From NCBI GenBank assembly GCA_022925895.1, contig JAKSYS010000020.1, forward strand, positions 1 to 64,000: DNA of 64,000 nucleotides, read 5' to 3'. The position numbers were made by a program, and so were the translations under genes. Source of the DNA: Fragilaria crotonensis (Eukaryota; Bacillariophyta; Fragilariophyceae; Fragilariales; Fragilariaceae). Below are positions 2,071 to 44,508 of the stretch, piece by piece (within the stretch, counting starts at the first letter, position 1; each line of letters starts with the position of its first letter). The notes under the pieces were generated by a model. That model worked only from the letters and a program-made list of their open reading frames with translations. It did no database searches and was not told the origin of the DNA.

Positions 2071-4216
2071 TTACGGCATCCCGGCAGGTTTGTCCCACTG
2101 CGTCTCCCCTGTCTTCTCGTTGTAGTAGTAGACCTGCCCATCTGCGGCAGTGGCAGACTTCCACCCAAAAGAAACAGGTACACCCATGCTTTGAGGCGGT
2201 AGGTGTTGCTGCGGTGGAGCACCGTATGCAGGGACAGCATGTTGTGTGTAAACTGGAGTAGATTGATACGGACTCATCCCGTATGGAACAACAGGCTGCG
2301 CGTATTGTTGTGTAGGGGGGTTGTGACCGTATGGCTGAGAGTGTCCACCGTATTGAAGCTGTCCATGTACATGTCCAATCTGTTGATACCCACCGTGCAT
2401 TGGGACTTGGACCTGCTGCTGCATATACTGGTTCAGCTGTCCTTGTTGGAGGTAGTTATGGCTGCTATCTCCTCCGTACTCTGCGAGGAAGAAGATTAGA
2501 ATACGATACACAATGAACCGATAAAATGTGGTACAAGCATGAATCAAACTTACGTCCTCCTCCACCAGCATAAGGATGATTAGGCCCCATTTCAATGATT
2601 TCCCGTAGCATCTGCTTTGCCATCTCAATCTTTTGCCGCGACCCCTTTATTGTGACGATGCAATCCTGACCCGCGGGGACATCCTGGTTGATTTGAATGT
2701 CACATCCCGAGCGTTTTTGTAAATCGTTGATAGTGATTCCCTTCTGCCCGATGATTCTTCCCATGTACATCTTGGCAGCTGGAAAGTATTCCGTTTCGGG
2801 GCCCCTCTCCGAGTATCCACCAAATCCATGTTGCAGAGGCGGAACGCCAAATGCGTGGCCAGGTGGTGGGCCTGCTTGATGGTAGCCACCATACTGCTGG
2901 GGTGGAGGTGGTTGATTGAAACCAGAATCCAAAGGGGTCATATTGTACCCCTGGTTGGGCATATTGACGTAGGGCGGACCGCTCCCCCACCTTCCTCCTC
3001 TCTGCACTTTGTCATCGACCAGCATTCGAATGGCCTTCATCGCGTCCATGAGTGGATTTGCAACCAAGAACATAACCATTTCCTCAGCCTTCACAACCGC
3101 ATCTGGCGTACCTACGATGGATACCAAGCGTGTGTCGGCTTTGTACACCTTCGCTGTGTGGTCAACCTGAATCTTGGCCTGCGATCTCGATTGCAGTTCA
3201 CGCACCATTTCACCAGACCTACCAATTATTTTGCCTACAGATGAAGCGGGAACAACCAAATCCTTTCTCGTTGCTGATCCTAGCGGCAAGGTGGTCTCGT
3301 TACCTTGCGGCGTACAGAGTGTTGAAACCTTTGAAAAAGATGACAAACCATTAAATTAGAAGCTTCCACATAACTTCAATTCGCAGCTTTCACGTACCAT
3401 TTGTTTTGCAAGATCGACCTTCTTTCGGGTCCCGCGGTAAGTCAATATCCTCGGATTTCCGTGTGGAACGTTTTGGTCTACGTCCAGCCTGCACCCTGAA
3501 CGAGCTTGTAGGTCTCTTAGCATTTCCCCTCCTTTTCCAATTACCTTGCCCACGTACTGAGCCGAAATTTCAGCGCGCTCCTCTACGATTGAGTTCGGAT
3601 TTGATAGTGTCGGTGCACTGATTGAATCAGATGGTTTGTGAGGATTGACGTCCAAAACGGGAGGCCCCGATAACGATCTCTCGGTACGATTCAGTCCATA
3701 CGCTGGGTCCATCGAAGGTTCTTCTCCAAACGGAGTAGGTTCCTTCAACGTTTTCTCCTCAACTGGTGTTTGGACGACGTCGGCTCCATTAACTTGAACG
3801 ACGAGCAACGGATCAGGTTCTGCGGCAACAGATGGTGAAGCAACAAGAGTTGGTGATTCTTTGGCTCCATCGTCTCCGGGGATTGCATCCGGAGGCTGCA
3901 TCACGACCACATTCTTAGACGTGATTATGCCTTCAGACTTGATCACGGATTCAGAGTTGATAAAGCCTTCAGACTTGATCACTGACTCAGACTTGATTAT
4001 GCCTTCAGACTTGATTAAGCCTTCAAACTTCATCCCATCTTGGGAAATCGCGATATTTGTTTCAGACGCGTTGTTATTGACGAGTTCCCCATCTTGGATC
4101 GAATTTTGGTCCTCAGTCTTGACTCTCTTAGGCTCTCGATTTCCCGCATCACGATGAACATCTGACGTATCATCCAGTTCATCTCTTTCCCGTTTGAATG
4201 AAATCTCTTCCGACAT
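2071..4216 (-). CDS. Triple-KH RNA-binding protein with C-terminal WW domain
   Basis: Three exons: 4216-3398, 3328-2554 and 2480-2071. The introns are 69 and 73 bases with GT..AG ends, and the joined length of 2004 bases is in frame (667 aa). The start is ATG in MSEEISFKRERDE. Three KH domains each have the GxxG loop: GKGG (about residues 213-275), GRSG (about 292-365) and GQKG (about 450-520). A Gly/Gln/Pro/Tyr-rich linker follows, then a WW domain at the C-terminus (GW...YYYNEKTGETQWDKP). This layout resembles FUBP/KSRP-type regulators of splicing or mRNA fate that bind single-stranded RNA or DNA, while the WW domain binds Pro-rich partners such as splicing factors. The N-terminal third is acidic and contains repeated IKSE motifs. 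It is head-to-head with nothing obvious within 4 kb upstream. The family call is firm; the exact orthologue is not known. Confidence 0.9.
3850..4050 (-). repeat. In-gene repeat encoding tandem IKSE motifs
   Basis: Within exon 1 of the KH gene a short unit is repeated about five times, encoding variants of IKSEGIIKSESVIKSEG. Four copies read [I/V]-K-S-E, which fits the SUMO-attachment consensus (hydrophobic-K-x-E). The DNA repeats as cttcagacttgat-type units on the plus strand. Confidence 0.75.
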
Positions 4217-23060: not shown

Positions 23061-23947
23061 TGGAACATGGTATGGGATCTCCTTCCCGCTGGTTCACCAG
23101 AATGCCCGATTCATTCGAGGACATGCGACACTTGTACCTCGAAGGTAAAACCTCGTTTATCCCAAACCTACCAAGGCCTAACGTGATTAGACTACAACGT
23201 CATGCCTACGTTTCCGTCATAGACTGCATAGCTGATATACTGGCCCATGGATTGGACCTTGACACAATTAATGCAGGACGTGCTTGCGGACGAGACAATG
23301 ACACTGCTGCAGTTTCATCGCAGTTTTTGGCTTTCGAGAAAAACAGGGAGAGCCAACATTGTAGGGCGATCTATGACAGGGCTCACCGGGATACGATGTC
23401 GACAAATAATGCGCACCATCCCTTGTTGATCTGTTTGTGGATAAATGAATGGTCAGATGGCTTGAGCCAAGCTATTCTGTGACGGCCAATCGAGGTTCTT
23501 CTTGGCTAAAGACAATCACCATATCACCCCAGCAAATAAAGTGCATTCCCTGGAATACACATATCCAATCGCAGTTGGCAGGTCAACATGGCCGCACGAG
23601 GAGGTGGAGAGGAAGTTCGCAGACAAACTAAGGATGCTTGCCAACAACAATACTGAAGGACGACTTTTTATCATGGTGCCATGAAGAAAAATGTTCGGGT
23701 CCATGCAGAATTGAAAGTTTCATTGATGGACCAGCCTGAAAGACGTGGTGCAAACTACATAATGTTGGAGGGGACCTACACTTCGTTGGAGACATACGGC
23801 AAACCTTTCGTACGTAAGTGCTAATCTTCAGGCATGTGATGATTGCGCCGCCAACGTGTTAATGGCGAATCAACGATATCATGCAACAGAATCTGATGCG
23901 CAGGGGATGACGAGGTCGTGTCAACGCTGCACTTGCTGGAGGACACA

Positions 23948-24840
23948 TGGTGCGGCAGCATTCTAGAATTTCCATTCCTGAAAGCTACCCGCCAGACATG
24001 GCACCGCCGTAGGGTACACTGCGTCCGGTTGTTCTCACTTACAAACGACTTAGATTTGCTGCACAAATCTTGCACGAGAAGGTGTTCAACGGATCGTGGA
24101 CGATGAAGGCAGCAAAAGTGTTTCTTCGTGTCGAAGGCATGAACCTGGAGGCTGCGAATGGTATCACAGAGTGTAGTAATGACTGCCGGAAAGTATCTCG
24201 CTCTCAACCAGGAAGACCAGAATTTGTCAAGCTAATGGAATTGAAGTTCATGTCACCTTCTGATTATGCACCGTGGAGGATTCCCGCTCTATGGGCCCAC
24301 CATATTGGTGTTACTTTGGATCAACATGTGGATGTGCCGATGCATTTGCTTTTTCGGGATCACCAAAACTGTTGTCTTGATGGTGCAAGAGTGGATGGTG
24401 CGGCAGCATTCTAGAATTTCCAATTCCTGAAAGCTACCCGCCAGACATGGCACCGCCGTCGGGTACACTGCGTCCGGTTGTTCTCACTTACAAACGACTT
24501 AGATTTGCTGCACAAATCTCGCACGAGAAGGTGTTCAACGGATCGTGGACGATGAAGGCAGCAAAAGTGTTTCTTCGTGTCGAAGGCATGAACCTGGAGG
24601 CTGCGAATGGTATCACAGAGTGCCGGAAAGTATCTCGCTCTCAACCAGGAAGACCAGAATTTGTCAAGCTAATGGAATTGAAGTTCATGTCACCTTCTGA
24701 TTATGCACCGTGGAGGATTCCCGCTCTATGGGCCCACCATGCTGGTGTTACTTTGGATCAACATGTGGATGTGCCGATGCATTTGCTTTTTCGGGATCAC
24801 CAAAACTGTTGTCTTGATGGTGCAAGAGTGGATGTTGGGG
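23948..24840 (+). repeat. Tandem duplication, unit about 446 bases
   Basis: The stretch from GGTGCGGCAGCATTCTAGAA to GATGGTGCAAGAGTGGATG occurs twice in a row with very few differences, one being a short insertion in the first copy near 24175. The near-identity implies a recent event. Confidence 0.85.
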
Positions 24841-25005
24841 AGGAGCAAAAAAGCCGCATTCATACGCTATGCAAATACGGCGATGTTGTTGCCTATTCGA
24901 CTTGGGCTTGATTGGTGTAAGGTTATTCCTTTTGGAGGAGGCAAGTTGGGAGGGTATGTCGCAGAGAATTACTTGGCAGTGGCAAGGTTGAGTAGCTGGT
25001 TCTTT

Positions 25006-25800
25006 TCGCCGAAGCAATTTTGATTGCCCCTTCACCAACCGAAGTCGGAGGAAATGTTGATAATGTTGTCCATGTCATCAGAGCACTGCCAAGTTTGAGT
25101 AGCTGGTTCTTTTCGCCGATCAATTTTGATTGCCCCTTCACCAACCGAAGTCGGAGGAAATGTTGATAATGTTGTCCATGTCATCAGAGCACTGCATGCA
25201 ATGATATCGAGGCTCATGAGGAGGACAATCGACGATGAAAAAATACTTGACTGCGAACGCCATATCCACCTCTTTCTGTCATACTTCAGCAAGTTCGATA
25301 CGGATTTACGATATCGAGGCTCATGAGGAGGACAATCGACGATGAAAAAATACTTGACTGCGAACGCCATATCCACCTCTTTCTGTCATACTTCAGCAAG
25401 TTCGATACGGATTTACGAGGTGAACATAAGCGAACCTGGGTTCGCCGATCAATTTTGATTGCCCCTTCACCAACCGAAGTCGGAGGAAATGTTGATAATG
25501 TTGTCCATGTCATCAGAGCACTGCATGCAATGATATCGAATCAGAGCACTGCATGCAATGATATCGAGGCTCATGAGGAGGACAATCGACGATGAAAAAA
25601 TACTTGACTGCGAACGCCATATCCACCTCTTTCTGTCATACTTCAGCAAGTTCGATACGGATTTACGATATCGAGGCTCATGAGGAGGACAATCGACGAT
25701 GAAAAAATACTTGACTGCGAACGCCATATCCACCTCTTTCTGTCATACTTCAGCAAGTTCGATACGGATTTACGAGGTGAACATAAGCGAACCTGGGTTC
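25006..25800 (+). repeat. Nested tandem duplications, two interleaved units
   Basis: A unit of about 80 bases (TTTTGATTGCCCCTTCACCA ...) appears at about 25018, 25126 and 25452. A unit of about 107 bases (GATATCGAGGCTCATGAGGA to CGATACGGATTTACGA) appears four times, at about 25203, 25310, 25561 and 25668. The copies are almost identical and some junctions cut units short, which indicates repeated rounds of duplication within already duplicated DNA. Confidence 0.85.
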
Positions 25801-26041
25801 GCAGTTATAACTTCATGTCACTCCTAAACCTGCCTGAAGTTCTCAAGAAGTACGGTCCCCTACGGAACCTGTGGGAGGGAGGGGGTCAAGGAGAACATCA
25901 AGTTCGATACGGATTTACGAGGTGAACATAAGCGAACCTGGGTTCGCAGTTATAACTTCATGTCACTCCTAAACCTGCCTGAAGTTCTCAAGAAGTACGG
26001 TCCCCTACGGAACCTGTGGGAGGGAGGGGGTCAAGGAGAAC
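25752..26041 (+). repeat. Tandem duplication, unit about 145 bases
   Basis: The segment starting CAAGTTCGATACGGATTTAC and ending GGGGTCAAGGAGAAC occurs twice in a row without visible change. Confidence 0.85.
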
Positions 26042-26253
26042 GAGTCCTCAGCGTTGTCAAGCCTACGTGGGGTGGATATAGGAAAAACTGGATGCCTAGT
26101 ATGCTCGATAGGATGCTTCGTCAGATGGCAATTGAAAGGATAAAGTCAAAGCAGCAATACGGAAATCTGAAGATTGGTGATGACGCATCCTCCGGAATCG
26201 AGGATGAACATGAATATGCCAATGACGACGAGAACAATACAACAGATGACATT

Positions 26254-26689
26254 GATGATGTTTTGTTGGGTGGAACCGAGGAAAGTGCTAGAGGGCGCTG
26301 ATGTTTTGTTGGGTGGAACCGAGGAAAGTGCTAGAGGGCGCAACTACGTTAGCTACCTCAGCGTCGAAAACGTTCGTCGCGATCATGAGCGGAGACTACC
26401 GTTGTCAGTGTTAAAGGCTGAAAACAGGGGAATTTGTCTGCGTTATTCAGAAGACAACAATTATACAAATCTTGCCAGCAGTTCGAGATGACATTGCAGG
26501 GGTGGAGGAAAGTGCTAGAGGGCGCAACTACGTTAGCTACCTCAGCGTCGAAAACGTTCGTCGCGATCATGAGCGGAGACTACCGTTGTCAGTGTTAAAG
26601 GCTGAAAACAGGGGAATTTGTCTGCGTTATTCAGAAGACAACAATTATACAAATCTTGCCAGCAGTTCGAGATGACATTGCAGGGGTGG
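26254..26689 (+). repeat. Two tandem duplications, units about 43 and 184 bases
   Basis: GATGTTTTGTTGGGTGGAAC with its continuation is doubled at about 26257-26340. The stretch from GAGGAAAGTGCTAGAGGGCG at 26321 is repeated exactly 184 bases later at 26505. Confidence 0.85.
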
Positions 26690-26985
26690 ACGAACATGAC
26701 TCCGGCAACAATTTTTTTTGTTGGACACTATCTGAAGGGTCTCTCCGGGTGTTGAGCAATATTAAAGCGGAAATCAGTAACTTTTGCATCCTACTGCCAA
26801 AGCTCGACCATTTTGGGAAGCCAACATCAGCTGTTTGCCAGACCGAGGAGGGTGACAGACAGCAGATCCACGTTCAATACACTGTGATTGACTCAGCATG
26901 GAGTGTACTGCATCACAATGACAGTCGTTGGATTATGTGTGCCCCCCATTTCCCTGGTGCATGCTATGAAAGTGATCGGAATTAA

Positions 26986-30354: not shown

Positions 30355-30815
30355 TGCGAACCTCTAGGAGGGGGTTATCAATTGTGGTCGGCAATGTCAT
30401 ATAAGATCAGCCCCACCAGATGGTCACGAAACTGAGAACCTCTAGGAGGGGGTTATCAATTGTGATCGGCAACGTCATAATAAGATCAGCCCCACCATGA
30501 TGGTCACGTTTCTGTCCACCAGGAATTAGCTTCGTACAGACGGTCACGAAACTGAGAACCTCTAGGAACCAGATGGTCACGAAACTGAGAACCTCTAGGA
30601 GGGGGTTATCAATTGTGATCGGCAACGTCATAATAAGATCAGCCCCACCATGATGGTCACGTTTCTGTCCACCAGGAATTAGCTTCGTACAGACGGTCAC
30701 GAAACTGAGAACCTCTAGGAGGGGGTTATCAATTGTGATCGGCAACGTCATAATAAGATCAGCCCCACCATGATGGTCACGTTTCTGTCCACCAGGAATT
30801 AGCTTCGTACAGACC
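30355..30815. repeat. Minisatellite, unit about 125 bases
   Basis: About three to four copies of a unit with GAACCTCTAGGAGGGGGTTA, CAGCCCCACCATGATGGTCA and CCACCAGGAATTAGCTTCGT lie head to tail, some shortened. The long minus-strand frame across it is a by-product of the repeat. Confidence 0.85.
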
Positions 30816-30985
30816 AGTCTGACGGGCGGCCGTTGGCCGCAAATGTTGTAGAGGGGGTCTGGTTCGTTTTGTTCTGAATTTCTTTTTCCTACAGTACAAT
30901 AGTAGGTCTAGATGTGAAGAGAATATTTTAGACTGGTATCTGTGATGTACGGAATCCTGTGACCTTCCGGGAGTCTAAACGCCCG

Positions 30986-31010
30986 GGGGGGGGGGGGTTG
31001 CTTAAATTAA
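30986..31010. repeat. Left flanking direct repeat of the 12.8-kb element
   Basis: A G-run followed by TTGCTTAAATTAA ends exactly where the terminal inverted repeat starts. The same sequence follows the right end at 43844-43868, matching at 23 of 25 bases. This is a candidate long target-site duplication. Confidence 0.7.
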
Positions 31011-31420
31011 GGGGAAATTACAATATCACGCATTTTTTTGCCACTTTGCAATATAGTACAATGACTTACTATCCACAAATTCGTATTTTACTATATACTA
31101 CATTTACAATTGTATTTTACAATATCACGCATTTTGAAAAGAGACATTTACAATATCACGCATTGTTTTGCCCCTTTTTACTATATCGCGCTTTTGTCGC
31201 CTGCCATGCCCGACCTCCACGGACGTCATGGTACACCATCTCGTAACATTCATCAAAGATGGTTCACACTCATCGCTCCACCATGTCGTACATACGCAAC
31301 GAACGTCATCATCACTCACTTCTCATCTGTCGTTCGTTTACTAAGCATCATACTTTGAGTGTGGTCATAATTCTTCTCTGCTCTTTTGTTTCAGAACTAC
31401 AACTCAATCTTCATCTATAT
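31011..31420 (+). repeat. Left terminal inverted repeat
   Basis: Begins GGGGAAATTACAATATCACG. The motif ACAATATCACGCATT recurs three times within the first 165 bases (about 31020, 31129, 31158) with a weaker fourth copy (ACTATATCGCGCTTT near 31180). Such iterated subterminal words are typical transposase-binding sites. Confidence 0.9.
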
Positions 31421-31637
31421 GGTCAACGAAATGGCACCAAATCTGAGATCAACAGTAGTCCCATACACAATCTGCGTCACGGTACTGTACCACAAACAAC
31501 CTACTGACGTAGCGAAGCCCATGAAGGGCAACATGCCATTATCTTACCAGTGTGTTCACTGCTTTTTGCTGTTAACTCACTTTGCTACCATTATACTTCG
31601 CACTTGATGTGCAAGTTAGTTATCATTAACATCAACA

Positions 31638-34037
31638 TCAATTGTCTTCATCGTTGTCATCAGTATCTTTTGAACAGCATTCTTTATCGTCGTCAGGTCT
31701 GTACAAATCCAGACCCAACAAACGATTACGCATTGCCTGCCTCCTCCGTGCCTGCACTCTAGGACAGTCTTCGTCACTTGTCATTTCCAAGTCAGACTGG
31801 AATTGACGTGCCATCCCTTCCTCCTCCCGCATCCCTCTTGCAGTAGCGATTACAACGTCGTCGTCATCGTTGTAACGACAACCATGCTGAATACAACGAC
31901 GAATGTATGTTTCTGCCTCGTCATTGCTGTCATCACGGTCATGTGATCCAGAGGTGATCTTCTTCATTTCGTCGTCCTTCTCATTCACCTCGTGGAATAG
32001 TCTCTTCGGGCGCCTTGTATTTGATTGTGCCACATTCGTGACGACATCTGCTGCCGCACTACTTCCTGAAGCACGACGTCGACCTGCCGCCACAACTTTT
32101 TCCTTGGCTGCCGTGAAGGTGCCATATAAGTGATTGTTGCCATTCCAACAACCCGAGCGTACTGGTGCTGTACCTTGCCCATCCGGTCGAGACACCGACG
32201 TGCAATGTCTCACAGCACGTCCGTCCCAGCTTATGGCTGTCCCATGATAAAGCTTGACGGCAATGCCATTGTACTCCGTTCCGCATGGCCTCCTTCCGTG
32301 CAAATTGGGGAAGATCAAGTACCAGTTTGATGCACAACCGGGCATTTCCTCTGTCCACACACTAAAGCCCTGCGACGCGTCGTTTACGTCGAAATGCGAC
32401 GCATTTCCTAGGTCAACGCTCATATCAATCGTGTAGCCCACCCGGATCCCATTGCAGTCATTTTCACCCATCGGAGCAATGGGTGGAAGAGATGAATCGG
32501 CTTCCATGTGTTGAACAACAGACAGCACATCGGGAAAACAGCACATACCGATAGTTGCGAACGCCGCAATAAACCTTTTCAGTACTGTTTGCGGCACCTT
32601 ATAGTTAGCGGCGTATCCAACAGTACCCGATCCGTCAAGGAGCACTCGTGTCCCAATGGCATGCATTGTCCCAACATCTCCTTTGTTCTGTCTCGCCGTG
32701 CCAACAGGTACATTCCGACGCAGAAGTGAGTTGTGTTCCACAATTGCGTCTAGGCAACCGACAACGTCATATTGTTGCTTCAGATGACAATACCGCGACT
32801 TGAGTGATGCGTCAAGAACGCTTCGGACCATGATGACAGACTTCCTCCCAATTGTGCTTGACACTGGTGGTGCAATGTCGACTATGATGTCAACGAATGG
32901 GCGTTCCCCAGGATCAACAATCCAGCAAGTATCGGGGATGTTAAGATGCAAGCACCCAGGAGCGTAATGACGACCACCCACCCTTGTGGAATTAGAGTTG
33001 ACAAGGCGGCGGTTGTATTCCTGAGCTCGGTCAGGAACTGGCCACGCACCCACATCGTGGCCAGAGATAAGATCTGGTGGCATCCTTGGGCCTTCGTGAT
33101 CCGCGCATTGTGTTGACGTGAACACTTCACGCGGAAAATTTATTGTGGCGGGATGGTACGCAACTTTCCACGCAGACACAAAAGTAGACTGTGGCGACCC
33201 CTTTGTCGTAATGCTGGCAAACCTTTTAACGTAGCCATCCCCACCAAATTGCAAGTCCGACTGCGGCGACTGCTCCATGCCAGTCTTTAGACGAAACCAA
33301 CTCATGTCCATGGCAATCCTGGAACCTTCTACACCTTCTGACTTTCTTCGCCAGTCCCTTACAGCGTAAAATACACCCGCCCCCGGGAGGAACGCAAGGA
33401 GAGTCCTGTACTTGAAGTCGTTGACATCATCCAGGTCTTTTTCTTCAGACGCAGGTGCCATAATGACGTCGTCTTCACCCAAGTTACCATAACTTGAGTC
33501 ACTTATACCCAATGCCGCGGCAGCCGTCGGGGTAATCCTCCGATTACAGATGACATCCATTAGGATGAATTCCGAAAGGAATTCGGAGGATGATCCGTGC
33601 TTCATGAACATGTCATCCAGAGACCGCAATTGCGTGATGGCAGTACTACGATCGGAATCGTTGTTGATACCGAATGAACAAGCAAGCGCATACGCTATCC
33701 ATCGCAAGGGTGTCCCACATATCTCGACCTCGCCCTTCATCGTCCCTGTTTTTGTTGCATCGCGAAACGCAGTCGCAAATTCCCGACCTTCACTGAAATT
33801 ACCGCCGTTCAAGGGGAAGCACTTTAGTAGAAGCGCCAACACCTTTGGACTGGAAGGAAAGTAATTCCTCTGCTTGCGTTTTTTTGGCATCTTGTTACTT
33901 AACCGTTTTATTGAAGGATCCACCACTACCACACGTGGATTTTCGTTTCCAAAGTTGAGCATAGTTGACCGACAAATGGACGTCCGACATCGCGCCTTCA
34001 ACGTTTCGTTGTCTTCGTTTGGTATCAAGTCCGACAT
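31638..34037 (-). CDS. Transposon-borne protein with 2OG-Fe(II) dioxygenase-like core
   Basis: An intact 799-residue ORF using ATG at 34037 (MSDLIPNEDN). The most conserved region, judged against the paralogue at 49530-51990, reads GYTIDMS..LGNASHFDV.DAS.G.SVWTEE, then NW....PN.HG, then GIAV.L.HG.AISWDGR..RHCTSVS. His548-x-Asp550 followed 61 residues later by His611 matches the metal triad of the double-stranded beta-helix dioxygenases. TET/JBP enzymes, the DNA-base oxidising branch of that superfamily, are known cargo of some DNA transposons in fungi. The usual 2OG-binding Arg after the distal His is not clear, since the nearest Arg is His in the paralogue. The N-terminal half has no known domain; the C-terminus is acidic. 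It diverges from the transposase gene with about 600 bases between the starts. Dioxygenase identity is an inference. Confidence 0.55.
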   Translation of the reverse strand: MSDLIPNEDNETLKARCRTSICRSTMLNFGNENPRVVVVDPSIKRLSNKMPKKRKQRNYFPSSPKVLALLLKCFPLNGGNFSEGREFATAFRDATKTGTMKGEVEICGTPLRWIAYALACSFGINNDSDRSTAITQLRSLDDMFMKHGSSSEFLSEFILMDVICNRRITPTAAAALGISDSSYGNLGEDDVIMAPASEEKDLDDVNDFKYRTLLAFLPGAGVFYAVRDWRRKSEGVEGSRIAMDMSWFRLKTGMEQSPQSDLQFGGDGYVKRFASITTKGSPQSTFVSAWKVAYHPATINFPREVFTSTQCADHEGPRMPPDLISGHDVGAWPVPDRAQEYNRRLVNSNSTRVGGRHYAPGCLHLNIPDTCWIVDPGERPFVDIIVDIAPPVSSTIGRKSVIMVRSVLDASLKSRYCHLKQQYDVVGCLDAIVEHNSLLRRNVPVGTARQNKGDVGTMHAIGTRVLLDGSGTVGYAANYKVPQTVLKRFIAAFATIGMCCFPDVLSVVQHMEADSSLPPIAPMGENDCNGIRVGYTIDMSVDLGNASHFDVNDASQGFSVWTEEMPGCASNWYLIFPNLHGRRPCGTEYNGIAVKLYHGTAISWDGRAVRHCTSVSRPDGQGTAPVRSGCWNGNNHLYGTFTAAKEKVVAAGRRRASGSSAAADVVTNVAQSNTRRPKRLFHEVNEKDDEMKKITSGSHDRDDSNDEAETYIRRCIQHGCRYNDDDDVVIATARGMREEEGMARQFQSDLEMTSDEDCPRVQARRRQAMRNRLLGLDLYRPDDDKECCSKDTDDNDEDN

Positions 34038-34069
34038 GGCAAATGGTTTGCCAATACTATACACTCACA

Positions 34070-34640
34070 GCTAAATGGCAGGGAGAGTACAGTAAACTTG
34101 TTGACAGTGAAACGAACTCCGTCGGCTAGATGGCAGATGGAATTTGTTTCAGTGGAAACGGCTCTAACCCTACGTCAAGGACACCTCGTTCTACTAAGGT
34201 GACCAAATACTTAGAGCTCCAAGCTAAATGGCAGGGAGAGAAAGTACTCTGTCGACGCAACAAGCGTTCCCGGCTAGATGGCAGGGAAATGATGATGCGC
34301 TCCTGGTAGTGAGGTGGCCTCAGGTTAAGAGGTGAATGCGAAGATTGTTCGGAATGATTTTAGAAGACGAAGAAGAAGTAAACTTGACTTGAGAAGTAAT
34401 GCCGGAGTGAAACGTGTTGGACATAGAACTCCGCGCGCAATTCTTTGGTTAGTACATGTTTTACGTTGAAATTTGCGTGAATTTGAATCATGGACTACTA
34501 ATTAGCCTACCAGCGCGCGAAAGTACTACTAATTAGCCAACAAACGCGCCAAAGACAGCAAAATTTTGATATTTATCTCTAGTCATGTAGGCTTAGGTAT
34601 TTTACTTAGACGTAACACTTAAGCGTTGCACTTAGACGTA
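34070..34640. promoter_or_regulatory. Putative bidirectional promoter with iterated motifs
   Basis: Between two divergent ORFs, the word GCTA[A/G]ATGGCAG occurs four times on the plus strand, at about 34070, 34125, 34223 and 34273. Further on, ACTAATTAGCC followed by a CGCGC word occurs twice (about 34496, 34531), and ACTTAGACGTAA occurs twice (about 34606, 34630). Repeated words between divergent starts fit binding sites for a shared regulator, possibly the element's own transposase. Confidence 0.55.
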
Positions 34641-37600
34641 ATGCTACGGATGCGTACAAGTACCACTTTTACATCGAATTCTCAAGCCACCATCGGTTGT
34701 CATCTTCCTCTTTTGAGGGTGTCTTTGGAGTTGTGTTGTGATCACCACAAACATACCATGAAGGAGGCACGTTTCCCGGGAGATCCTCGCTTTTCTGGAT
34801 GGATATCACCCAGCAGTGAGGACACTTCTGCGCTGTCAACGAATGCTTGGCTGAGCACTTTGTTATTGGACTGTATATTGCAGCGATCTGTCCCTCCCCA
34901 GGAGGTAATTTCCACGAATGTATCTCACATAGGAAGCCTTGGCACCTATGAGTACTTCAATTCATGTAATGACTTGATCAATGATAATCCAGAACTCGTG
35001 GAAGACGAGACGACGAGAGGACGTAAACTTGCTCGTAGTCGGAACGTCGCTCGTATTCGGCAACAAATGAAAGCTTGTTTTGGATCGCCGCGTACTCTCA
35101 ACAGGCTGCTTATCCCGATTGTGTTGGGAAATCATTTTTTTGTGCTATGCCTGGACTGTTCGATCTCAACGCCGGAGTTCGTAAATGACATGACGTTTTA
35201 TGATTCCCTGGTACGCCGCACACGTCAGGTTCACCCCGATGTACTTTGCATTGTAAAGGTTGTGAATTTATTCATTCACAATTTCATTCTACACGAGAAA
35301 AAACATGCACACCTAAGGGAAAGTGACGCGGCGCTGATTGGCAGGGTGCATTATTGCGATTGTCCCATCCAGAAAAATGGGTTTGACTGCGGCTTGTTTG
35401 CAGTGGGTGTTGTATTACACCTCATCGAGGGCATTGATGTCACGAGAGAAACGTTTCGGCAACAAGACGTCACCAAACTGCGAAGTAGGCTGGTGACAGT
35501 ATTTGGGGGGGATGGTGCTGACTTGGGAACAACAAGTCAGGTTGTGCGTGATTGCTTTCCTAAGTTGCGCGGAAGTAGCATCTTAGACAGTTTTGGGCTG
35601 GAGGTAATTCATAAAGAACCAAAGAAGGAACGAAGGCTCAGTTCCGACAGTGATGTGAGTGCTGCTGTCCTGGTGTTGACAACGTTGCAGGCTGAGGAGG
35701 CAGATCGTCCTGCCAGGGTGAGTAACGTTTTATCGGCAAAAACAGCAGACAGAGCGCAGGCGAGGATAGAGAAGAGGAATGAGAATCACGACGATGACGA
35801 CGACGACGACAGGGCTGAGGGAGATGATGATGATGATGACTACGTCACCTGCGACAGCAGTGACGAGTACAGTTTGCAATCCGATGGCGTCGGCACTTCC
35901 ACCCTGACAGGAGAGGAAGTCGACAGAAAGCAGGGAAATTCAGTGGCTACTACAAAGGATTATGTATTGTATGACATCCTTGATGACGCGAACGTTGACT
36001 GCTTCTCAACCTTGGAAGAGGTGGTACCGTTTATTGAAAAGTATGAGGTCAGATCGGGTAATCGTTTGAGAGTGCAACGTTCCATTTGCGACCGTTTCAA
36101 ACAATTTCAATGTATGGAGCACGTCGACTGTCCGTTTCGTGTGTTGATATCTAGGCGGCGATCCGACGGTATGTTCTGCGTCCGAAAGATTACGGGTATG
36201 CACAGTGAGGTGTGCCGACCTAAACAGGCAGCTGATGGGAGAAAGTGGAAGAAGAGGCGAAATGCAGTGCTTGATGATGTTATCGATCAGATAGTTCGCA
36301 CGAAGAAGGGAGCTCCAACACCGGCGGACGTTGTGAAGACAGCTGCGACGAAGTCGGGGGTTGTCGTTTCATACATGACAGCGTACAGGGCGCTACGCTT
36401 TCAAACCAGTAGCATGAGAAATGCTTCCGTGAAAAACTTCGAAATGGTCATCCCATTTTTGGAGGGCTTGAAGAAAACGAATCCTGGTTCTGTGATTGGG
36501 TATGCTAGGGATGAGGAGAAGAGACTTGTCGATCTTCATGTATTTCCTGGTATCATGAATGGGTTGCTGAAGTTTGTTCGACCAGTAGTGTCGTTGGATG
36601 CGACACATTTGAGGAGCGAACACAAGGGAACTCTGTACGTAGCATCAGTTCTCAGTGGGTGCAATGACATCTTCCCCATTGGGTTTATGATCTCCGCCGG
36701 AAACGAGGATGGAGCAACGTGGAAAAAGATGCTTGAATTGTTGAAAAAGCGTGTCCAATCATTGATGATCAGGGCTATGGCGACACTGACACGGATGGCG
36801 TTGTTAGGCCGCCGTTTCTTTTCATTTCAGACAGAGACAAAGGCCTGAAGGAGGCATTGAAATCGGTGTTCCCGAATAAGTACGAAATGAGCTGTGCTAG
36901 ACACATCGAAGCGAATGTAACGCAGAAGTATGGAAAGCAGTGTTCGAAGTTTGTGTGTTCAATAGCCAAATCATTCTCAACACGAAATGCAAGCCTGTTG
37001 CTAGATGAGATTGAAAGGTCAAGCCAGAGGCCGCCACATATTTGGAAGGCATAACGGCATCGGTGTTCTGTGGCAGAGTACTCAGTGGTACTCAGATTCA
37101 CCGTCACCGTCACCTGCTCAGTTGCCTCCAAGGTATGGGATTGTAACTTCGAACACTTCCGAGTCGGCGAACAGTATGTTATCGGAAGCAAGGAATCTTG
37201 GATGGCTGGAGGCTGTGAACAAAATTCTTGACATAATGACGACGAGTGTGTGCTTGCCGAAAGAAGTATGCTGAACGAGATGGATCGGAGGTGGTGCCTA
37301 GAGTTGCCCAGATTCTAAAACGTAGGTGGATGCCGCTGCGTCTATGACGGTCGATGAGTTGGAGGTGGGGTGTGGTGACTTCAAGGTGGTGGAACCAATA
37401 TCGATAGTTGATGAAAATGGCGATGACAATGTGCAACGGATGGCACGATCCTATGGAGATCCAGACCGTGTCCTTGTTGTCAAACCATACTTGGAGTGGT
37501 GCAGCTGCGGGGTATGGCAAGACTTCCTGTACCCGTGTCGACATGCATGTGCAGTCTTCAGGAAATGGCAGGAAAAGGAATTCAGTTATGTTCTGAGAAG

Positions 37601-37877
37601 TTTGGTCCATCCATTCTACACATTTGAGTTCGTGCACAATACTTTCAAGAAGAACGTTTTCCCTGTATGCTTGGAGACGACTGTATATGATGGTGAAACA
37701 AAGGAACCAAACGTGCCAAAACGGCAATCTGGACGACCGAAAACAAAACGAATTCGCAAACGCAGTAAGTTCATTGAAAGCGAGGATTCTCCTGTGAAAT
37801 GTTCCATTTGTGGAAGAAGAGGGCACAACCGAAGAACTTGTCCTAGTGCAGTAGTTGGTAACAATGACAATAAGTAG
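34641..37877 (+). CDS. Ulp1 protease - MULE transposase fusion with SWIM and CCHC motifs
   Basis: The first frame (34641-36848, 735 aa) holds a Ulp1/C48 cysteine protease with catalytic His165 (NHFFVLCLD), Asp188 (FYDSL), Gln244 and Cys250 (QKNGFDCGLF). An acidic linker follows, then a FLYWCH/MuDR-like DNA-binding block (about 36000-36210) and the MULE transposase with its first Asp at residue 653 (VSLDATHLRSEHKGTLYV). The second Asp (FISDRDKGLKEAL, near 36830) and a TSNTSESANSML block (near 37150, supplying the Glu) follow in shifted frames. Then come a SWIM finger (WCSCGVWQDFLYPCRHACAV) and a zinc knuckle (CSICGRRGHNRRTCPS). Ulp1 domains joined to MULE transposases are known from plants. 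About four frame changes (near 36775, 37050, 37260, 37330) mean it is not one clean ORF; short introns do not obviously explain them. Confidence 0.85.
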
Positions 37878-37934
37878 AAGAAACGAGAACGGGTACATCA
37901 TGAAGCATGCCACGATGAGATCATTGTTTATGTA

Positions 37935-38100
37935 AGATTGGAAATTTGCTTCAATAGGTGGTACAGTACCGTGATGCAGATTGTGTATGGGAATACCGTT
38001 GATCTCAGATTTGGTGCCATTTCGTTGACCATATTCATCGTAGCCCTAAGGCTAATTTCGGTGCGCGAGCATTTGGAAAAAGTTATTTTTTTTAGGTTAG
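37935..38100 (-). repeat. Internal relic of the terminal-repeat inner edge
   Basis: Read on the minus strand, this joins a stretch found just inside the right TIR (AATTAGCCTTAGGGCTACGA, at about 43410) to a stretch found just inside the left TIR (GGTCAACGAAATGGCACCAA, at about 31421). It lies exactly between the transposase gene and the 1098-aa gene. It looks like a leftover of an ancestral element end. Confidence 0.75.
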
Positions 38101-38231
38101 AGCTAATTCTACATTCCCTCACTTTCAACTCTTGACAATCGAAATTTGAATCACAGCACACTGAAATTCAAATTATGAATCGACCGCTCTGCTGGTGACA
38201 AAAGGGTTGACCTCTTGTCAACTCTGCAGCT

Positions 38232-41200
38232 ATGAGTCTCAAGGTCTTCTGTGAGAAATGTTTGGAACCAGTTGTTGACACACCATTCTTTGAGCTACTA
38301 TCTACAAGTGATGACCCACTTGATGCCTCGAATGTCACGCATTTTGTTTGTGGAGCATGTTTTGGACTCCTACATGCCGCTCGTGGCTGTGCACCGTTCT
38401 TTAAATGCCCGAATGAAAATTGCGATTGTCTGGTAGTAGGCCATCGTTATCACTCCACCGTTGTCACTGTAACGCGGCAGGGCATCAAGAAATCTCGGGC
38501 ATATCTGCCTGGACCGGAAACATACATTGAAAGCCCGAAACTCGAGAAGGATCCCGTTCGTTTTTTCCAAAACCAACCAACGGAGGCAAAGTTAGAGACT
38601 GTGGTACTTAATGTTGCCTTTGCCGAGACAAAAGAAGATGGTAGTCTCAAGAATGAAAGGTCACTCTCAATCCATGTCCCTATGACCAAGTCAAGCGATG
38701 AATACAGCATCGCGACCAGGAAGAAGTTGATCAACTTTGCCAAACTACTCTACCACGTGTACGTGTTTCCCTTGGCGTCCGCCCCATCAAAGCTGAACTT
38801 TGCATCAATGGAAGACCTCGACGGGCATGCATTTTCGGATTCCTGTTTTTTGGTTGAGACTCTTGTTGGTATTGGAACAGGAAAAGGCATCAATGATATT
38901 CTTCCGCTCGGATCTGAGTCAAATGCATATCAGAGGAGCTCATTTCTTTCATTTTGGACGGCCGCAGAAATGATGAGGCGTGGAATCTCCACAAAGCCTG
39001 GAATCCTACAAGACATCCTGCAGAAGCATTTGTCAACATATCAGGCACCACAAGCTGTATCGGATTTATTGACAAGGTATCGTATTGCAGCATCGCGGGA
39101 ACGTACACGTCTAAAAGACATTGAGGCGGTCAATCGAAAGATTGAAGAGGGTTGGAAAATCGACAGGATGCGCTACGGTCTTGTGTTCATCATCTATGAC
39201 AATCTCGGATTTCGTATTCTTGGAGCTAGAGCGGGCTACGACCAATACACAATGATCCTTGTGTTCTTTATCACTCCAGAGCAACTCAAGGAACTAGGCT
39301 TTTATCGACCCCGCGGCTCTCTACAGCCGCCAATTTCCCGCGATCGGTTGGTTTGGAATGACATTAGATCAACAGTGAAGAAAGAAGACATCTTGCCTTG
39401 CACTGAGCACTATACCTACATGTCGGAGCAGATTCTTGCCGAGATTGATAGTCTGTTATGCATGTGCGACCGGATACCCTCATTAGCAGACATAAAGGAC
39501 TTTCTTGTGGAGGGCAGTGCATTTGTGGCTGACACAAGGCTCGTGACTTCGCATGGCACGCAACACAGAAGGGAAGTCTCAGCCAGAGTTGAGGTCGAAG
39601 TAGAAGAAGAGGAGCAAGGAGATCCGGAGGAAGACACGATGCGACTATTGGATCCATGCATACATGATGCTCCAACAATGTATGAATGCAAAGGTCAGCG
39701 GGTGGAGATTGATCTTCCTATGAGGGCGGATCTAAACAAAAAAGACACATGCAAGGGCCTTGCCCAAGGGGCGTTGCACACGAGGGAGCGCATTCTTGAT
39801 TCGGGCGGAGAGTTGGATACTGATGAGCCGCCGGTGATGGAAACCTGCGGCATTGCTACGGGGGGAGATGGATCGCCGTCTTACACATTCGACGTTATGG
39901 CCGCAGCTGATCCGATGGCGTACGAGCACCTCAAGAACCACACTGGCGGGTTCCACCAGTGTCTGAATACACATCAATCTATTGGCGCTAGATTTGCCGA
40001 TACACACCTTCGCGACTTCATCCATCCATTTCGTAACACCGACCCCAAAAAAGAATGGTTCCTTTTTCCCGGAGATCCTGGGCAGACTCAGCAAGAGCTT
40101 CCTGAAATGACCGCGGCTCACTATGTGACGGCAGCAAGGCACCTTTCCAAGAAGGAGAACGGAGAAGCAGTGTCGGCCGTCGATGTTCACAACCACATGC
40201 TCGAGAGATCAGCAGAGCACGATATTTGCATGGTCACCTTAATGTGGCTACACTTTGTGGCTGTAGCCGATATGATCCGGGATTCTGAGAAAGAGAATGA
40301 TCCAGAACTGTATCGAGCTGGTGCGCGACTTGCTCTCCTCCTGTATGTCAAGACCCATTCGACAAAATATGTCCGTCTTGGCGTCTCATTCTGGATATAT
40401 TGGAGTTGCGCTTCGGATGCTGATAAAGTGCTTTACAATTCCTTTTACTTCACCAAGAAGACAGCAAATGGCAAGTTCATTTGGGTTGACCGGTTTGAAG
40501 AATGGTTTAACTTGGATGTTCGGTCGTACCTCGGAAAGTACGCAAAACCAAATCAAGAGTTGCTCCTCCAACGGACGGCTCTGATGACGAAGGAGAGGCG
40601 GCGTTGGAAAGCTACAGCGGCTGCGAAACGACGCGGTGACAAGAGTGGCGGTCAAGATAATGTTGACAAGTCGTTGGCAGTATCTCCAATATTCTGCCAT
40701 CAAATGATCCTGATCGATCAATGGAATCTGTGGGGCACAGGTCCAATCCTTGTTGGATCAGGCGAGAACCTTGAGGAACCGAAAGGATTCTGCGATCCTT
40801 CCGGGAAGAACTTTTTATATCCCAACATCCTCTTTGATGTCTCGTCAGCTCAAGATACTCTGATGGCGTATCTTGAACACAACCACCTACAGGAGGATTC
40901 GAACACAGTGCATCGCTCCGAAAAAGCTGTGAGTTTACGCATGACGCCCGCGCTACTTAAGGATGTCAAGCAAGCTCGACTCGATGAATTTGAGCGGCTT
41001 ACATCTACTGACAAAGACAAGCTTGTGACGCTGACAACTGTGGAGTATTTGAAGACACAACTTGTTCAACTCAGAGCACGGTATCCGTTTCTTCGTCGTC
41101 TTGCAGAGCCCACGTGGGGCGGTCGGAAACCAGAGTTAGCAGAAGATCTGGCAAAGCATCACAAGTGCCTTATTTCAAAGGAAAGGGGGTACAAAAATAG

Positions 41201-41528
41201 AGTTAAGACGCAACTGCGCACTGCTGAGCTCGGAACTGGCTTCGCCTGTCCCAATAAGAAGAGGGAAGAGCTGAAGCTTGAGTTCTATACTTTAACTGAT
41301 GAGGTAAAGCAGCACTTTATTGGCAAGAAGTACAAGGTTGAGTCGAACTCCTCAGATCGAAATGATGGACGCACCGATTCTGATGACGAGGAGGACGGGC
41401 CAGGCACTGATATCGAACTGGTGGACGAAGAATCAAACGTTGTCCACCAAACGCCGGATCGAGGTCAGCGGAATAGTACTATGGTGGCCACTCCCTTCAT
41501 GAAAAGACCGCCACGTATGAGCCTTTGA
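38232..41528 (+). CDS. 1098-aa transposon-borne Cys-rich protein, DUF6589-like at best
   Basis: An intact ORF starting at ATG 38232. The N-terminus has paired cysteines (FCEKC, VCGAC, KCPNENCDC) that suggest a zinc-binding module in residues 5-75. The middle includes GLVFIIYDNLGFRILGAR (near residue 320), and later PGDPGQTQQE and a helix-rich part with YVKTHSTKYVRLGVSFW. The YDN motif and the late conserved helical block recall the uncharacterised DUF6589 proteins found in transposon-rich genomes, but I hold this loosely. The C-terminus is acidic. It follows the Ulp1-MULE gene on the same strand and converges with the 515-aa gene, their stops being about 90 bases apart. A large intact frame in a mobile element suggests it is kept for movement. 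Confidence 0.6.
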   Translation: MSLKVFCEKCLEPVVDTPFFELLSTSDDPLDASNVTHFVCGACFGLLHAARGCAPFFKCPNENCDCLVVGHRYHSTVVTVTRQGIKKSRAYLPGPETYIESPKLEKDPVRFFQNQPTEAKLETVVLNVAFAETKEDGSLKNERSLSIHVPMTKSSDEYSIATRKKLINFAKLLYHVYVFPLASAPSKLNFASMEDLDGHAFSDSCFLVETLVGIGTGKGINDILPLGSESNAYQRSSFLSFWTAAEMMRRGISTKPGILQDILQKHLSTYQAPQAVSDLLTRYRIAASRERTRLKDIEAVNRKIEEGWKIDRMRYGLVFIIYDNLGFRILGARAGYDQYTMILVFFITPEQLKELGFYRPRGSLQPPISRDRLVWNDIRSTVKKEDILPCTEHYTYMSEQILAEIDSLLCMCDRIPSLADIKDFLVEGSAFVADTRLVTSHGTQHRREVSARVEVEVEEEEQGDPEEDTMRLLDPCIHDAPTMYECKGQRVEIDLPMRADLNKKDTCKGLAQGALHTRERILDSGGELDTDEPPVMETCGIATGGDGSPSYTFDVMAAADPMAYEHLKNHTGGFHQCLNTHQSIGARFADTHLRDFIHPFRNTDPKKEWFLFPGDPGQTQQELPEMTAAHYVTAARHLSKKENGEAVSAVDVHNHMLERSAEHDICMVTLMWLHFVAVADMIRDSEKENDPELYRAGARLALLLYVKTHSTKYVRLGVSFWIYWSCASDADKVLYNSFYFTKKTANGKFIWVDRFEEWFNLDVRSYLGKYAKPNQELLLQRTALMTKERRRWKATAAAKRRGDKSGGQDNVDKSLAVSPIFCHQMILIDQWNLWGTGPILVGSGENLEEPKGFCDPSGKNFLYPNILFDVSSAQDTLMAYLEHNHLQEDSNTVHRSEKAVSLRMTPALLKDVKQARLDEFERLTSTDKDKLVTLTTVEYLKTQLVQLRARYPFLRRLAEPTWGGRKPELAEDLAKHHKCLISKERGYKNRVKTQLRTAELGTGFACPNKKREELKLEFYTLTDEVKQHFIGKKYKVESNSSDRNDGRTDSDDEEDGPGTDIELVDEESNVVHQTPDRGQRNSTMVATPFMKRPPRMSL

Positions 41529-41615
41529 TTGTCCTAGTACTAATCTAATGCTGTTCAAAGTAATGCTGCTAGTACATTTAGAAACTTGTTAAGGCTCAGG
41601 CTCTCAGTCTCTACT

Positions 41616-43163
41616 TTATATTGCTGGGGCGTCCTCCCTCGAGATACCAGCTTGAGTGTCTTGGAGTGATTTCGAAGTAATGTTCCTAGCGCGCTTTCTC
41701 TTCCGTTTTGTTATAAACTCATCCAGATGGCTCATCGCCTCTTCGCCAGTGCCAAAGAACTTTGTCTTCTCATAATTCTCATTGTCGCCTGCAGCAAGTG
41801 TAATTGTCTCAAGGATGGCTTGGAGGTCTTCTGGACACGTCGAAACATAATGAATTTGCGTCTTTGGACGTCGCAGCCTATCTGCTGGGAGTTGACCACC
41901 ATATTCAGGAGTCTCCTGAACCTCATTGACAACAAAAAGACCAATCCTCAACCGAGGTATCTCCTTGCGCTGTTCATAGACTAGTTGCCCCTTTGCATTC
42001 AATCTTGGTGGTAGACTGCTGAATGTGGCGGCTCGGATGGTGGCTCTGACAGCATTGTAGACCTCTGTGAGGGATAACTCACTACCTTGGTCTTGAGTAT
42101 TCCGAGCATGATCAAGATTCTTAATCCTTCGATGCTTCCACTTCTTCACCTTCTGTTTCTTGGTTTGTCTACTTCTCCGCGCGTCCGAGTGAGCTAAGCT
42201 TACATACTCACAGACTTCGTTTGTTGAAGGTATTTCTCCAGCCACCCGCTTTGATCGCCGTCTCGATGCTTTGTTTGGGCCTCGCTTCATGCCCTTGTCT
42301 TTTCGTTGCGATTGTTGGCAGCACGTGCACGAACGACCACGGATTTCGAAGAAAAAGGATTGTTTTGTTGCACTGGACATCTTTTGAAAAGCCGTTCGTG
42401 CAGCCCATTTCTCTGGATGAGTCAGATTTACAAACTCTTTAAGCTTGTCAAGAGATGTACGGTAGCTCCATGGGGGCTGGAGCAATTTGGGAAAAGCCCG
42501 CTTGATCGACTTCATGCATTTGAGGTTGATTGAATCCATGACGTCAGATTTGTCACCTCCGCTGGCGGGAGAATTTGTTTCTCTAGTACTAGGCGACTCG
42601 CATTCACTCTCAAGATCGTCTTCTTGGCAATCAAAACGAACGTGCTTTTTGCTTTGGAGAAAAGGTGCAGTCGAGGCAAATGCGCTCTCTGGGCGAGCAG
42701 ATTGCTTTTTGTCATGAACGAGGATGGAACAGAGCTCTCTTCTTTTGTCCCCTGAGGATGAGTCTTCTAAGCTAGCCGCTTTGATCCTCTCAAAAGCGGA
42801 ATGTGCAATGTGTTGTCCTTGGTATGCAAGGCTTTCATCGGAAGACTCCTGATCACCATCATCATCGTCAGAGGGCGTTTTCTTGTTACTTTTCAAACTG
42901 GCATTGATAAATCTACGTGCAGGAGGCTTCTGGAGCTCATCGTCTGCCTGCTCTTCTTCATCTTCTTCAGAAGATGCCTCCTCGTCAGATGAATCCTTCG
43001 ACAAGAAAGCCCGGCATGTGTTGAACTCCTGGGTGGAGATTAGATGAGGGGCCTGTGATGACAAATTGGTGAAAGGGCTCCGACAGGTAGGCAACTGTTG
43101 CTCTTGAAGGTTGGTCTTGTTGCGCAAGGGGAGATCTCGTCCTCGTCGATGGCGGGTCAGCAT
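41616..43163 (-). CDS. 515-aa charged protein of unknown function
   Basis: The open frame extends up to 43220 but its first ATG is at 43163 (MLTRHRRGRDLP), giving 515 residues. It has strongly acidic Ser/Asp/Glu tracts in the first third (SSDEEASSEEDEEEQADDE) and a basic centre with CTCCQQSQRKDKGMKRGPNK and several RRRSKR-type clusters that could serve as nuclear signals. The C-terminal third (LRIGLFVVNEVQETPEYGG...) is more globular. No family is recognised. It lies just inside the right TIR, reading away from it into the element. Alternating acidic and basic regions fit a chromatin- or DNA-associated accessory protein, but that is only a guess. Confidence 0.6.
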   Translation of the reverse strand: MLTRHRRGRDLPLRNKTNLQEQQLPTCRSPFTNLSSQAPHLISTQEFNTCRAFLSKDSSDEEASSEEDEEEQADDELQKPPARRFINASLKSNKKTPSDDDDGDQESSDESLAYQGQHIAHSAFERIKAASLEDSSSGDKRRELCSILVHDKKQSARPESAFASTAPFLQSKKHVRFDCQEDDLESECESPSTRETNSPASGGDKSDVMDSINLKCMKSIKRAFPKLLQPPWSYRTSLDKLKEFVNLTHPEKWAARTAFQKMSSATKQSFFFEIRGRSCTCCQQSQRKDKGMKRGPNKASRRRSKRVAGEIPSTNEVCEYVSLAHSDARRSRQTKKQKVKKWKHRRIKNLDHARNTQDQGSELSLTEVYNAVRATIRAATFSSLPPRLNAKGQLVYEQRKEIPRLRIGLFVVNEVQETPEYGGQLPADRLRRPKTQIHYVSTCPEDLQAILETITLAAGDNENYEKTKFFGTGEEAMSHLDEFITKRKRKRARNITSKSLQDTQAGISREDAPAI

Positions 43164-43431
43164 GGTGGAGAATCTCCAATTGAAGATGTTGCATGTTCGA
43201 ATGCCACCCCCCAAAACCACGGTGAGTGCATGAAAGCGGGTACGTGAAAGCCGATCTCATCGTGCCGCTTTCTTTACCCAGTCGTCGATTTGAATTTCGA
43301 TCTGTAAGTTAATTACACATGACACATGAACATCGGCAGGCTCAGCTTCTGATGGGAATGCAGAACTGGAATTCAAAAAATAACTTTTTCCAAGAGCTCG
43401 CGCACTGAAATTAGCCTTAGGGCTACGATGA

Positions 43432-43843
43432 ATATAGATGAAGATTGAGTTGTTGTTCTGAAACAAAAGAGCAGGGAGAAGAATTATGACCACACTCAAA
43501 GTATGACGCTTAGTAAACGAACGACAGATGAGAAGTGAGTGATGATGATGTTCGTTGCGTATGTATGACATGGTGGAGCGATGAGTGTGAACCATCTTTG
43601 ATGAATGTTACGAGACGGTGTACCATGACGTCCGTGGAGGTCGGGCATGGCAGGCGACAAAAGCGCGATATAGTAAAAAGGGGCAAAACAATGCGTGATA
43701 TTGTAAATGTCTCTTTTCAAAATGCGTGATATTGTAAAATACAATTGTAAATGTAGTATATAGTAAAATACGAATTTGTGGATAGAAAGTCATTGTACTA
43801 TATTGCAAAGTGGCAAAAAAATGCGTGATATTGTAATTTCCCC
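43432..43843 (-). repeat. Right terminal inverted repeat
   Basis: Ends ...CAATATTACGC-complement and TTGTAATTTCCCC at 43843. It mirrors the left repeat over about 410 bases with about eight substitutions and a short indel, including the three ATGCGTGATATTGTA words. Confidence 0.9.
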
Positions 43844-43868
43844 AAGGGGGGGGGGTTGCTTAAATTAA
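43844..43868. repeat. Right flanking direct repeat of the 12.8-kb element
   Basis: AA, then a run of ten G, then TTGCTTAAATTAA. It matches the left flank at 30986-31010 in 23 of 25 bases. Confidence 0.7.
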
Positions 43869-44508
43869 TGACAAACCTGTCGTTTTTTAAAGATGGCCAT
43901 TTTTGCACGTTTTGTAAGACCGTCGATGTATATTCTGTACCGTCCACAACACAATATTTGACATTGACAATGGCCAAATTGCCGCATGAATAGCATCATA
44001 CATCTATTCTAAGACTCATGAAGTAACAATTGACATCTACTCATTATTACCCATAGCAGCAGGACTCAAGGTGTGCAGAAAAGCGTAACTTTCCTTTAGG
44101 AGTGTCAATTCCATTCTGTTGCAGTGCACTCCAAAGCATTGTTGCACAGAGAGCACATGCATCAAGTCAAGCACTTTCAGGCTCAGTATTGGCACCGATG
44201 AAGACTAAAGGAAGTGATACAATCATGTTTGGTTCTCTTCTTCCACCTTGTTGGGATGAGGCGACCTGATAGTCCATCTCTTGGATTGCAGATTGTTCAA
44301 TAATGAATAGAGTCAGCCATGCCATTGGCATGATAGGCAACATTGAACATTCACCGAGGACATATGCAATGGAACTCAGAGTACAGAACTCCGTACTGTT
44401 GTACTGTTCGTGTTGCACAGCGTGCAGTATACGTATGTTACTCCAGCTCCTATTGGAAGTAGTATCAGTATATACTGCAGCTATTGGACATTGGACATAC
44501 TGCAGTAT
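43869..44508. other. Intergenic, no gene recognised
   Basis: Only short frames of no known family. Sequence from about 44390 on is rich in TACTGTACTGC and ACTGCAG words that also occur beyond 44645. Confidence 0.35.

Follow-up and report, generated by a model that had tools for sequence, protein, structure and literature searches.

The interval 31,011–43,843 of a 64,000-nucleotide stretch of the Fragilaria crotonensis genome (NCBI GenBank assembly GCA_022925895.1, contig JAKSYS010000020.1, positions 1 to 64,000; hereafter the window) is made of two nested transposons and not of one. We think it quite probable that a two-gene Mutator-like element (MULE), which encodes a transposase and a TET/JBP-like, putatively anti-silencing enzyme (open reading frame 1, ORF1), was later hit by a 5.4-kb transposon of the DDE type, which brought in ORF3, its putative transposase, and ORF4. 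The original prediction had described the whole 12.8 kb as a single MULE with four large ORF regions. The four regions are indeed present between the MULE ends, with stop-to-stop lengths of 808, 741, 1105 and 546 codons, the second of them continued by two more pieces; the part from 38035 to 43431, however, is the second transposon (Table 1).

Results and Discussion

The outer inverted repeats of the MULE (31011–31378 and 43476–43843) are 368 nt long and 99% complementary. They are extended by another 46 nt at 96% (31375–31420 and 43432–43477), giving a combined length of ~410 bp, as had been predicted for the near-identical ends. A second set of repeat pairs in the window joins 31417–31493 with 37958–38034 and 38031–38091 with 43375–43435. 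For comparison, ten other copies bounded by the terminal inverted repeat (TIR) were fetched from the host genome (contigs C401, C87, C334, C532, C32, C765, C707, C305, C65 and C16), and the insert 38035–43431 is absent from all ten. In eight of them the window positions 38034 and 43432 are contiguous, with exactly 4 nt (ATAT) in common; in C765 and C16 the alignment ends 18 and 145 nt before the junction, without space for an insert. The insert starts with TCATCGTAGCCC and finishes with CTACGATGA, with ATAT on either side, and this duplication reads TA if one further T/A is assigned to the repeat. The insertion point lies in the inner part of the MULE right repeat, which the insert splits. In a search of the 62-Mb assembly ORF3, ORF4 and both insert ends matched only themselves. 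Because the insert is missing from the other copies, is flanked by ATAT and finds only itself in the assembly, we regard it as an independent transposon, which belongs to a family unrelated to the MULE and inserted later.

Table 1. Features of the two nested transposons in the window
Feature	Position	Strand	Basis or remark
MULE left TIR	31011..31420	+	in other copies the repeat extends to about 31490-31511
ORF1, TET/JBP-like 2-oxoglutarate (2OG)-Fe(II) dioxygenase (predicted), 799 aa from first ATG	31641..34037	-	predicted fold, motif
ORF2 region: Ulp1 (Peptidase_C48), Mutator DNA-binding, MULE DDE, SWIM, CCHC zinc knuckle	34623..37877	+	Pfam
Inner piece of MULE right TIR, severed by insertion	37958..38034	-	matches 31417-31493 inverted, 96%
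ATAT duplication, left copy	38031..38034	.	copy alignment
Nested transposon, 5397 bp, starts TCATCGTAGCCC	38035..43431	+	one copy found in assembly
Nested-element left TIR, 57 bp	38035..38091	+	95% complementary to 43375-43431
ORF3, putative DDE transposase, 1098 aa, N-terminal Cys/His cluster	38232..41525	+	D323/D546/E757
ORF4, charged-residue-rich, 546 aa stop-to-stop	41619..43256 (stop-to-stop 41616-43256)	-	ORF scan
Nested-element right TIR, 57 bp	43375..43431	-	inverted repeat
ATAT duplication, right copy	43432..43435	.	copy alignment
MULE right TIR, outer 412 bp	43432..43843	-	inverted-repeat and copy alignment

Without the insert the window MULE measures 7.43 kb. Nine of the other copies span 7.48–8.27 kb and the tenth is a deletion copy of 4.2 kb, so that 12.8 kb does not hold as the size of the element. 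With 40 of 87 candidates scored, the assembly has at least 44 matches to the MULE repeat. For target site duplications we took the best match of 7–11 nt when the ends were allowed to shift by as much as 3 nt; C765, which ends with its contig, was left out. A perfect duplication of 8–9 bp was found in eight of the nine other copies with both flanks, and the ninth shows a single mismatch. In the same scan no target duplication was found at the ends of the window copy (best 7 nt with 2 mismatches). Here TTAAATTAA directly abuts the left end and recurs 16 nt past the right end, where the displaced TTAAATTAA sits inside a repeated 23-nt flank G(10)TTGCTTAAATTAA (window 30960–31010 and 43844–43870). 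The features by which a MULE is recognised are thereby found together: the 7.5-kb host element has long TIRs (~410 bp, 96–99%) and a MULE-type DDE transposase with a SWIM domain, and the other copies have a target duplication in the range of 8–10 bp. As a separate observation, the observed/expected ratio of CpG is 1.31 and 1.35 in the MULE ends (31011–31424 and 43432–43843) and 0.84 and 0.73 in the window flanks.

The two MULE genes are divergently transcribed. ORF2 matches the Ulp1-MULE transposase that had been named from the letters alone: Peptidase_C48 (expectation value, E, 1.3e-8) and SWIM (E 2.9e-6) lie above the Pfam cut-off, and the Mutator DNA-binding domain DBD_Tnp_Mut (E 0.0087) and the zinc knuckle (E 5.3e-4) lie under it. 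The MULE domain is divided between two frames and is seen as fragments under the cut-off (E 0.077 and 6.7e-6). The open pieces of ORF2 comprise 741 codons at 34623–36848 (plus strand) and, in other frames, 36737–37054 and 37326–37877. The frame of the window copy is broken at ~36.7–37.3 kb by several losses of 1–2 nt, two of them seen against all ten other copies and the remaining ones against fewer; an intron may lie at this break. The ORFs had been called intact, and this is true of ORF1, ORF3 and ORF4 and not of the transposase.

The architecture of ORF1 plus ORF2 is present in many copies. ORF1 occurs in all ten other copies, in C32 partly deleted, and contains no in-frame stop in any of them (window's frame, gapped codons excluded). 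We found at least 45 ORF1-like loci in the genome including the window (64 rows grouped; 56 of 531 candidates scored), and at 21 of these 45 an ORF2 match stands head-to-head with the ORF1-like gene, at a distance of up to 2.2 kb in 20 cases and of 3.1 kb in one. The ORF2 matches in the genome are likewise a lower bound (60 of 231 candidates scored). Because the copy lists are lower bounds, a neighbour missing from them is not evidence of absence. At the loci paired with ORF2 the lowest ORF1 identity is about 65%, apart from a stretch of the C798 locus with 59%.

Both MULE genes are under purifying selection. The ratio of nonsynonymous to synonymous substitution rates (dN/dS) was calculated for pairs that included the window copy, L022, L027 or L030. 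Between the 98% and the 90% subfamilies it is 0.22–0.32 for ORF1 and 0.20–0.25 for ORF2 (first 705 codons). C707 and C16, 90% copies that differ enough from one another, gave 0.25 for ORF1 and 0.29 for ORF2, and the window copy against five close copies gave 0.26–0.52 for ORF1, from 12–16 changes each. The purifying selection that had been expected between copies was thus observed for the two genes compared, with 0.22–0.32 for ORF1 and 0.20–0.29 for the transposase. We conclude that ORF1 is a selected component of the MULE. The idea that the extra ORFs are functional parts of the element holds for ORF1 and fails for ORF3 and ORF4.

Predicted fold of ORF1

ORF1 is open over 808 codons stop-to-stop (31638–34064, minus strand). 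It had been called dioxygenase-like, and structure comparison of the model points more narrowly to a TET/JBP-like fold: the predicted fold is nearest to solved TET/JBP enzymes, whose chains score 2–6 Z units over all other rows and align across 234–302 residues of the model. Their alignments start at about model residue 73–145, those of ALKBH3 and FTO at about 368–381. The sequence holds an HxD pair at residues 548/550, H598 and the arginines R607 and R610, an arrangement of HxD...H with a downstream arginine. In a 22-row alignment, in which 4–5 rows are gapped at these sites, the rows with a letter conserve H548 in 18 of 18, D550 in 17 of 17, H598 in 16 of 17, and R607 and R610 each in 17 of 17. 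From this motif the H/D/H/R residues would be the metal and cofactor ligands; both the TET-like fold and the conserved metal site are predicted features of ORF1. TET2, NgTET1, CcTet and CMD1 have the predicted fold and the HxD...H...R arrangement in common with ORF1, but the structural alignments to the TET/JBP enzymes give only 6–14% identity and ORF1 has no match to Pfam Tet_JBP.

The Fragilaria crotonensis genome gave 13 rows of DNA_methylase matches. Among the singletons of the six close copies we counted 17 CpG transitions (816 CpG positions) versus 15 other C-to-T changes (2670 positions), and among those of the five far copies 80 versus 56, with the CpG and C position totals counted on the window copy. 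This excess of CpG transitions fits methylated CpG. Two of the DNA_methylase matches (C826:11753–12919 and C541:2533–3699) lie in open frames of 479 and 493 aa with the same profile range, and these repeated methyltransferase genes may be mobile themselves.

Our data cover the anatomy of the MULE, the selection on its genes and the predicted fold, and from these we infer how the element could work. The MULE transposase would bind and cut the long ends, and the transposase and the TET/JBP-like enzyme would be transcribed away from a common central region of 585 bp. In the element, ORF1 would oxidise methylated bases (methylated cytosine), which would keep the promoter and the ends active and leave the MULE expressed and mobile despite host methylation. 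The Ulp1 protease may in addition counter SUMO-dependent silencing.

Two other roles for ORF1 deserve consideration. It could modify DNA without demethylating it and produce, like JBP or CMD1, a hypermodified base by which the element is marked or protected, or its transposase guided. We rate this as unlikely; Pfam shows no glycosyltransferase or similar partner gene among the ORFs of the element. Somewhat less likely again is a 2OG-Fe(II) oxygenase that does not act on DNA bases at all, for example a protein or small-molecule hydroxylase. The PHD2 rows, which also start at ~152, would be in line with such an enzyme, but the TET/JBP chains stand 2–6 Z units above the rest and align across 234–302 residues, and carriage by transposons under selection would suit an enzyme that modifies DNA, a role proposed for fungi (PMC12730594).

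The nested element

ORF3 (stop-to-stop 1105 codons, 38211–41528, plus strand) looks like the transposase of the nested element, judging from its residues: D323, D546 and E757 are invariant in all 11 sequences of its alignment. The protein collection yielded ten relatives; the nearest has 93% identity over 91%, and six of the ten lie on contigs of 5.8–6.8 kb. The viral contigs gave no match. DUF6589 (PF20231, function unassigned) matches three of the 11 aligned sequences weakly (best E 2.4e-4), and ORF3 itself not at E 1. The name DUF6589 has no mention in the openly licensed PubMed Central literature. ORF4 has no Pfam match above cut-off, and specifically no nuclease or helicase match in Pfam; it may be an accessory protein of the nested transposon. 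No family model clearly fits the putative transposase of the nested element.

That a single four-gene Mutator element holds ORF3 and ORF4, as cargo or as functional components, is hardly credible: all four ORFs are enclosed by the near-identical ~410-bp repeats and ORF3 and ORF4 are open, but both are missing from all ten other copies with the same ends, each is found once in the assembly, and the MULE repeat is interrupted by an insert that has TIRs of its own and a 4-bp duplication. The check that the original prediction had proposed, whether other full copies hold the same four ORFs, thus came out negative, and a fixed four-gene architecture is refuted by the copies without ORF3 and ORF4 and by the insert's own TIRs.

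Several points weigh against a MULE with a TET/JBP-like gene that was hit by a DDE-type transposon. The confidence of the ORF1 model is middling (mean predicted local distance difference test, pLDDT, 65). Pfam Tet_JBP (PF12851) does not match ORF1 or its 21 homologues at E 1, and a genome search with the same profile gave 0 candidates; because this profile fails to match, we call ORF1 TET/JBP-like and not a member. Relative to the window, small frame-breaking indels are seen in ORF1 of eight of the ten copies. Small indels also disrupt ORF2 in nine of ten, and six of ten have 1–3 in-frame stops in the compared ORF2 stretch; these indels and stops may be sequencing errors or decay. The excess of CpG transitions was counted on element copies alone and has no genome-wide baseline, and the element shows no CpG depletion (observed/expected 0.98). 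Finally, the ORF3 model is poor (pLDDT 54), with no fold match above chance.

Other loci and side observations

Two of the other 24 ORF1-like loci (C511 and C482:135621) lie inside listed MULE ends, and four of the 24 were examined (C137, C109:130957, C529 and C592). At C137, C109 and C529 a different large ORF adjoins the TET-like gene. These neighbour ORFs are 55% identical between C109 and C529, and C137 matches C529 at 30% over 86 residues (E 3e-8). Scanned against Pfam, they gave no transposase match at E 1; by their motifs, which we take to be those of CMC/Plavaka transposases, they resemble this group. At C592 neither a large neighbouring ORF nor a transposase match was seen within 7 kb. 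Its TET/JBP-like ORF (754 codons; L056, C592:60000–67000, 1838–4102, minus strand), which is followed by dense repeats with a step of ~43 bp, may be a solo gene or a remnant. At C482:134705–155932, 21 kb separate opposite MULE ends, and the interval holds one transposase match and two TET-like loci; it may consist of two elements or contain a further nested insertion.

The window also contains a series of two-copy tandem duplications at 23947–26694 and 30415–30814, with units of 43, 107, 145, 184, 153 and 120 bp at 99–100%, one of 437 bp at 96% and one of 106 bp at 95%. Either very recent slippage or an artefact of the assembly may account for them.

Comparison with known systems

Earlier surveys of TET/JBP proteins, such as that of Iyer and colleagues from 2014, may already list stramenopile members. 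Transposons with TET/JBP enzymes are documented in fungi, where, according to Kojima 2025 (PMC12730594), the genes ride on Dileera, Kyakuja, Zisupton, Plavaka, EnSpm, ESTA, hAT, Harbinger, IS3EU and Helitron elements, and an escape from methylation is proposed for them. The fungal TET+ transposons likewise have a dioxygenase beside the transposase, many copies and more than one transposon lineage. In contrast, the host here is a diatom, the carrier is a Mutator-like element with Ulp1, and the dioxygenase is too divergent for the Tet_JBP profile. The abstract of PMC12730594 names no MuDR/Mutator lineage as a TET carrier and the word "diatom" is absent from its text. TET genes on diatom or Mutator elements are not reported in the surveyed part of the openly licensed PubMed Central literature, and TET and JBP have 0 occurrences as whole words in PMC9998398.

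Mutator-like elements with extra genes are known from maize (mudrB) and from Arabidopsis VANDAL/Hiun (vanB and vanC), and a Phytophthora MuDR carries a SET methyltransferase gene, as described in PMC6446971 and PMC12730594. Some of these plant and Phytophthora genes have an anti-silencing or chromatin role there; here the extra gene is TET/JBP-like. The MULE-Diatoms group appears in the survey PMC6446971 with TIRs of 123–124 bp, a SWIM domain and a "1" in what is presumably the column of ORF numbers. As for the nested element, its 4-bp duplication falls in the ranges given for CMCT (2–5 bp) and AcademX (3–4 bp). Its termini TCATCG..CGATGA differ from the 5'-CA..TG-3' of most CMCT and from the CATCA..TGATG of PlavakaB, as given in PMC12730594. 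AcademX is reported to have a nuclease beside the transposase; ORF4 of the nested element has no Pfam nuclease match.

Conclusion

We lean, with no great margin of certainty, towards the view that at least two unrelated families of diatom DNA transposons, the Ulp1-MULEs and the CMC/Plavaka-like elements, share a divergent TET/JBP-like anti-silencing module. This weapon in an arms race would have originated or spread in stramenopiles, independently of the TET+ transposons of fungi. If this holds, a diatom Mutator with a selected TET/JBP-like gene would mean that such counter-defence is wider and rides on another transposase superfamily, and it would predict that algae have a class of DNA-modifying enzymes that is still without a name. 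With cytosine-methyltransferase domains, at least 45 TET-like loci and, reportedly, a history of study in culture (PMC9732472), this diatom would offer a system in which the idea can be tested.

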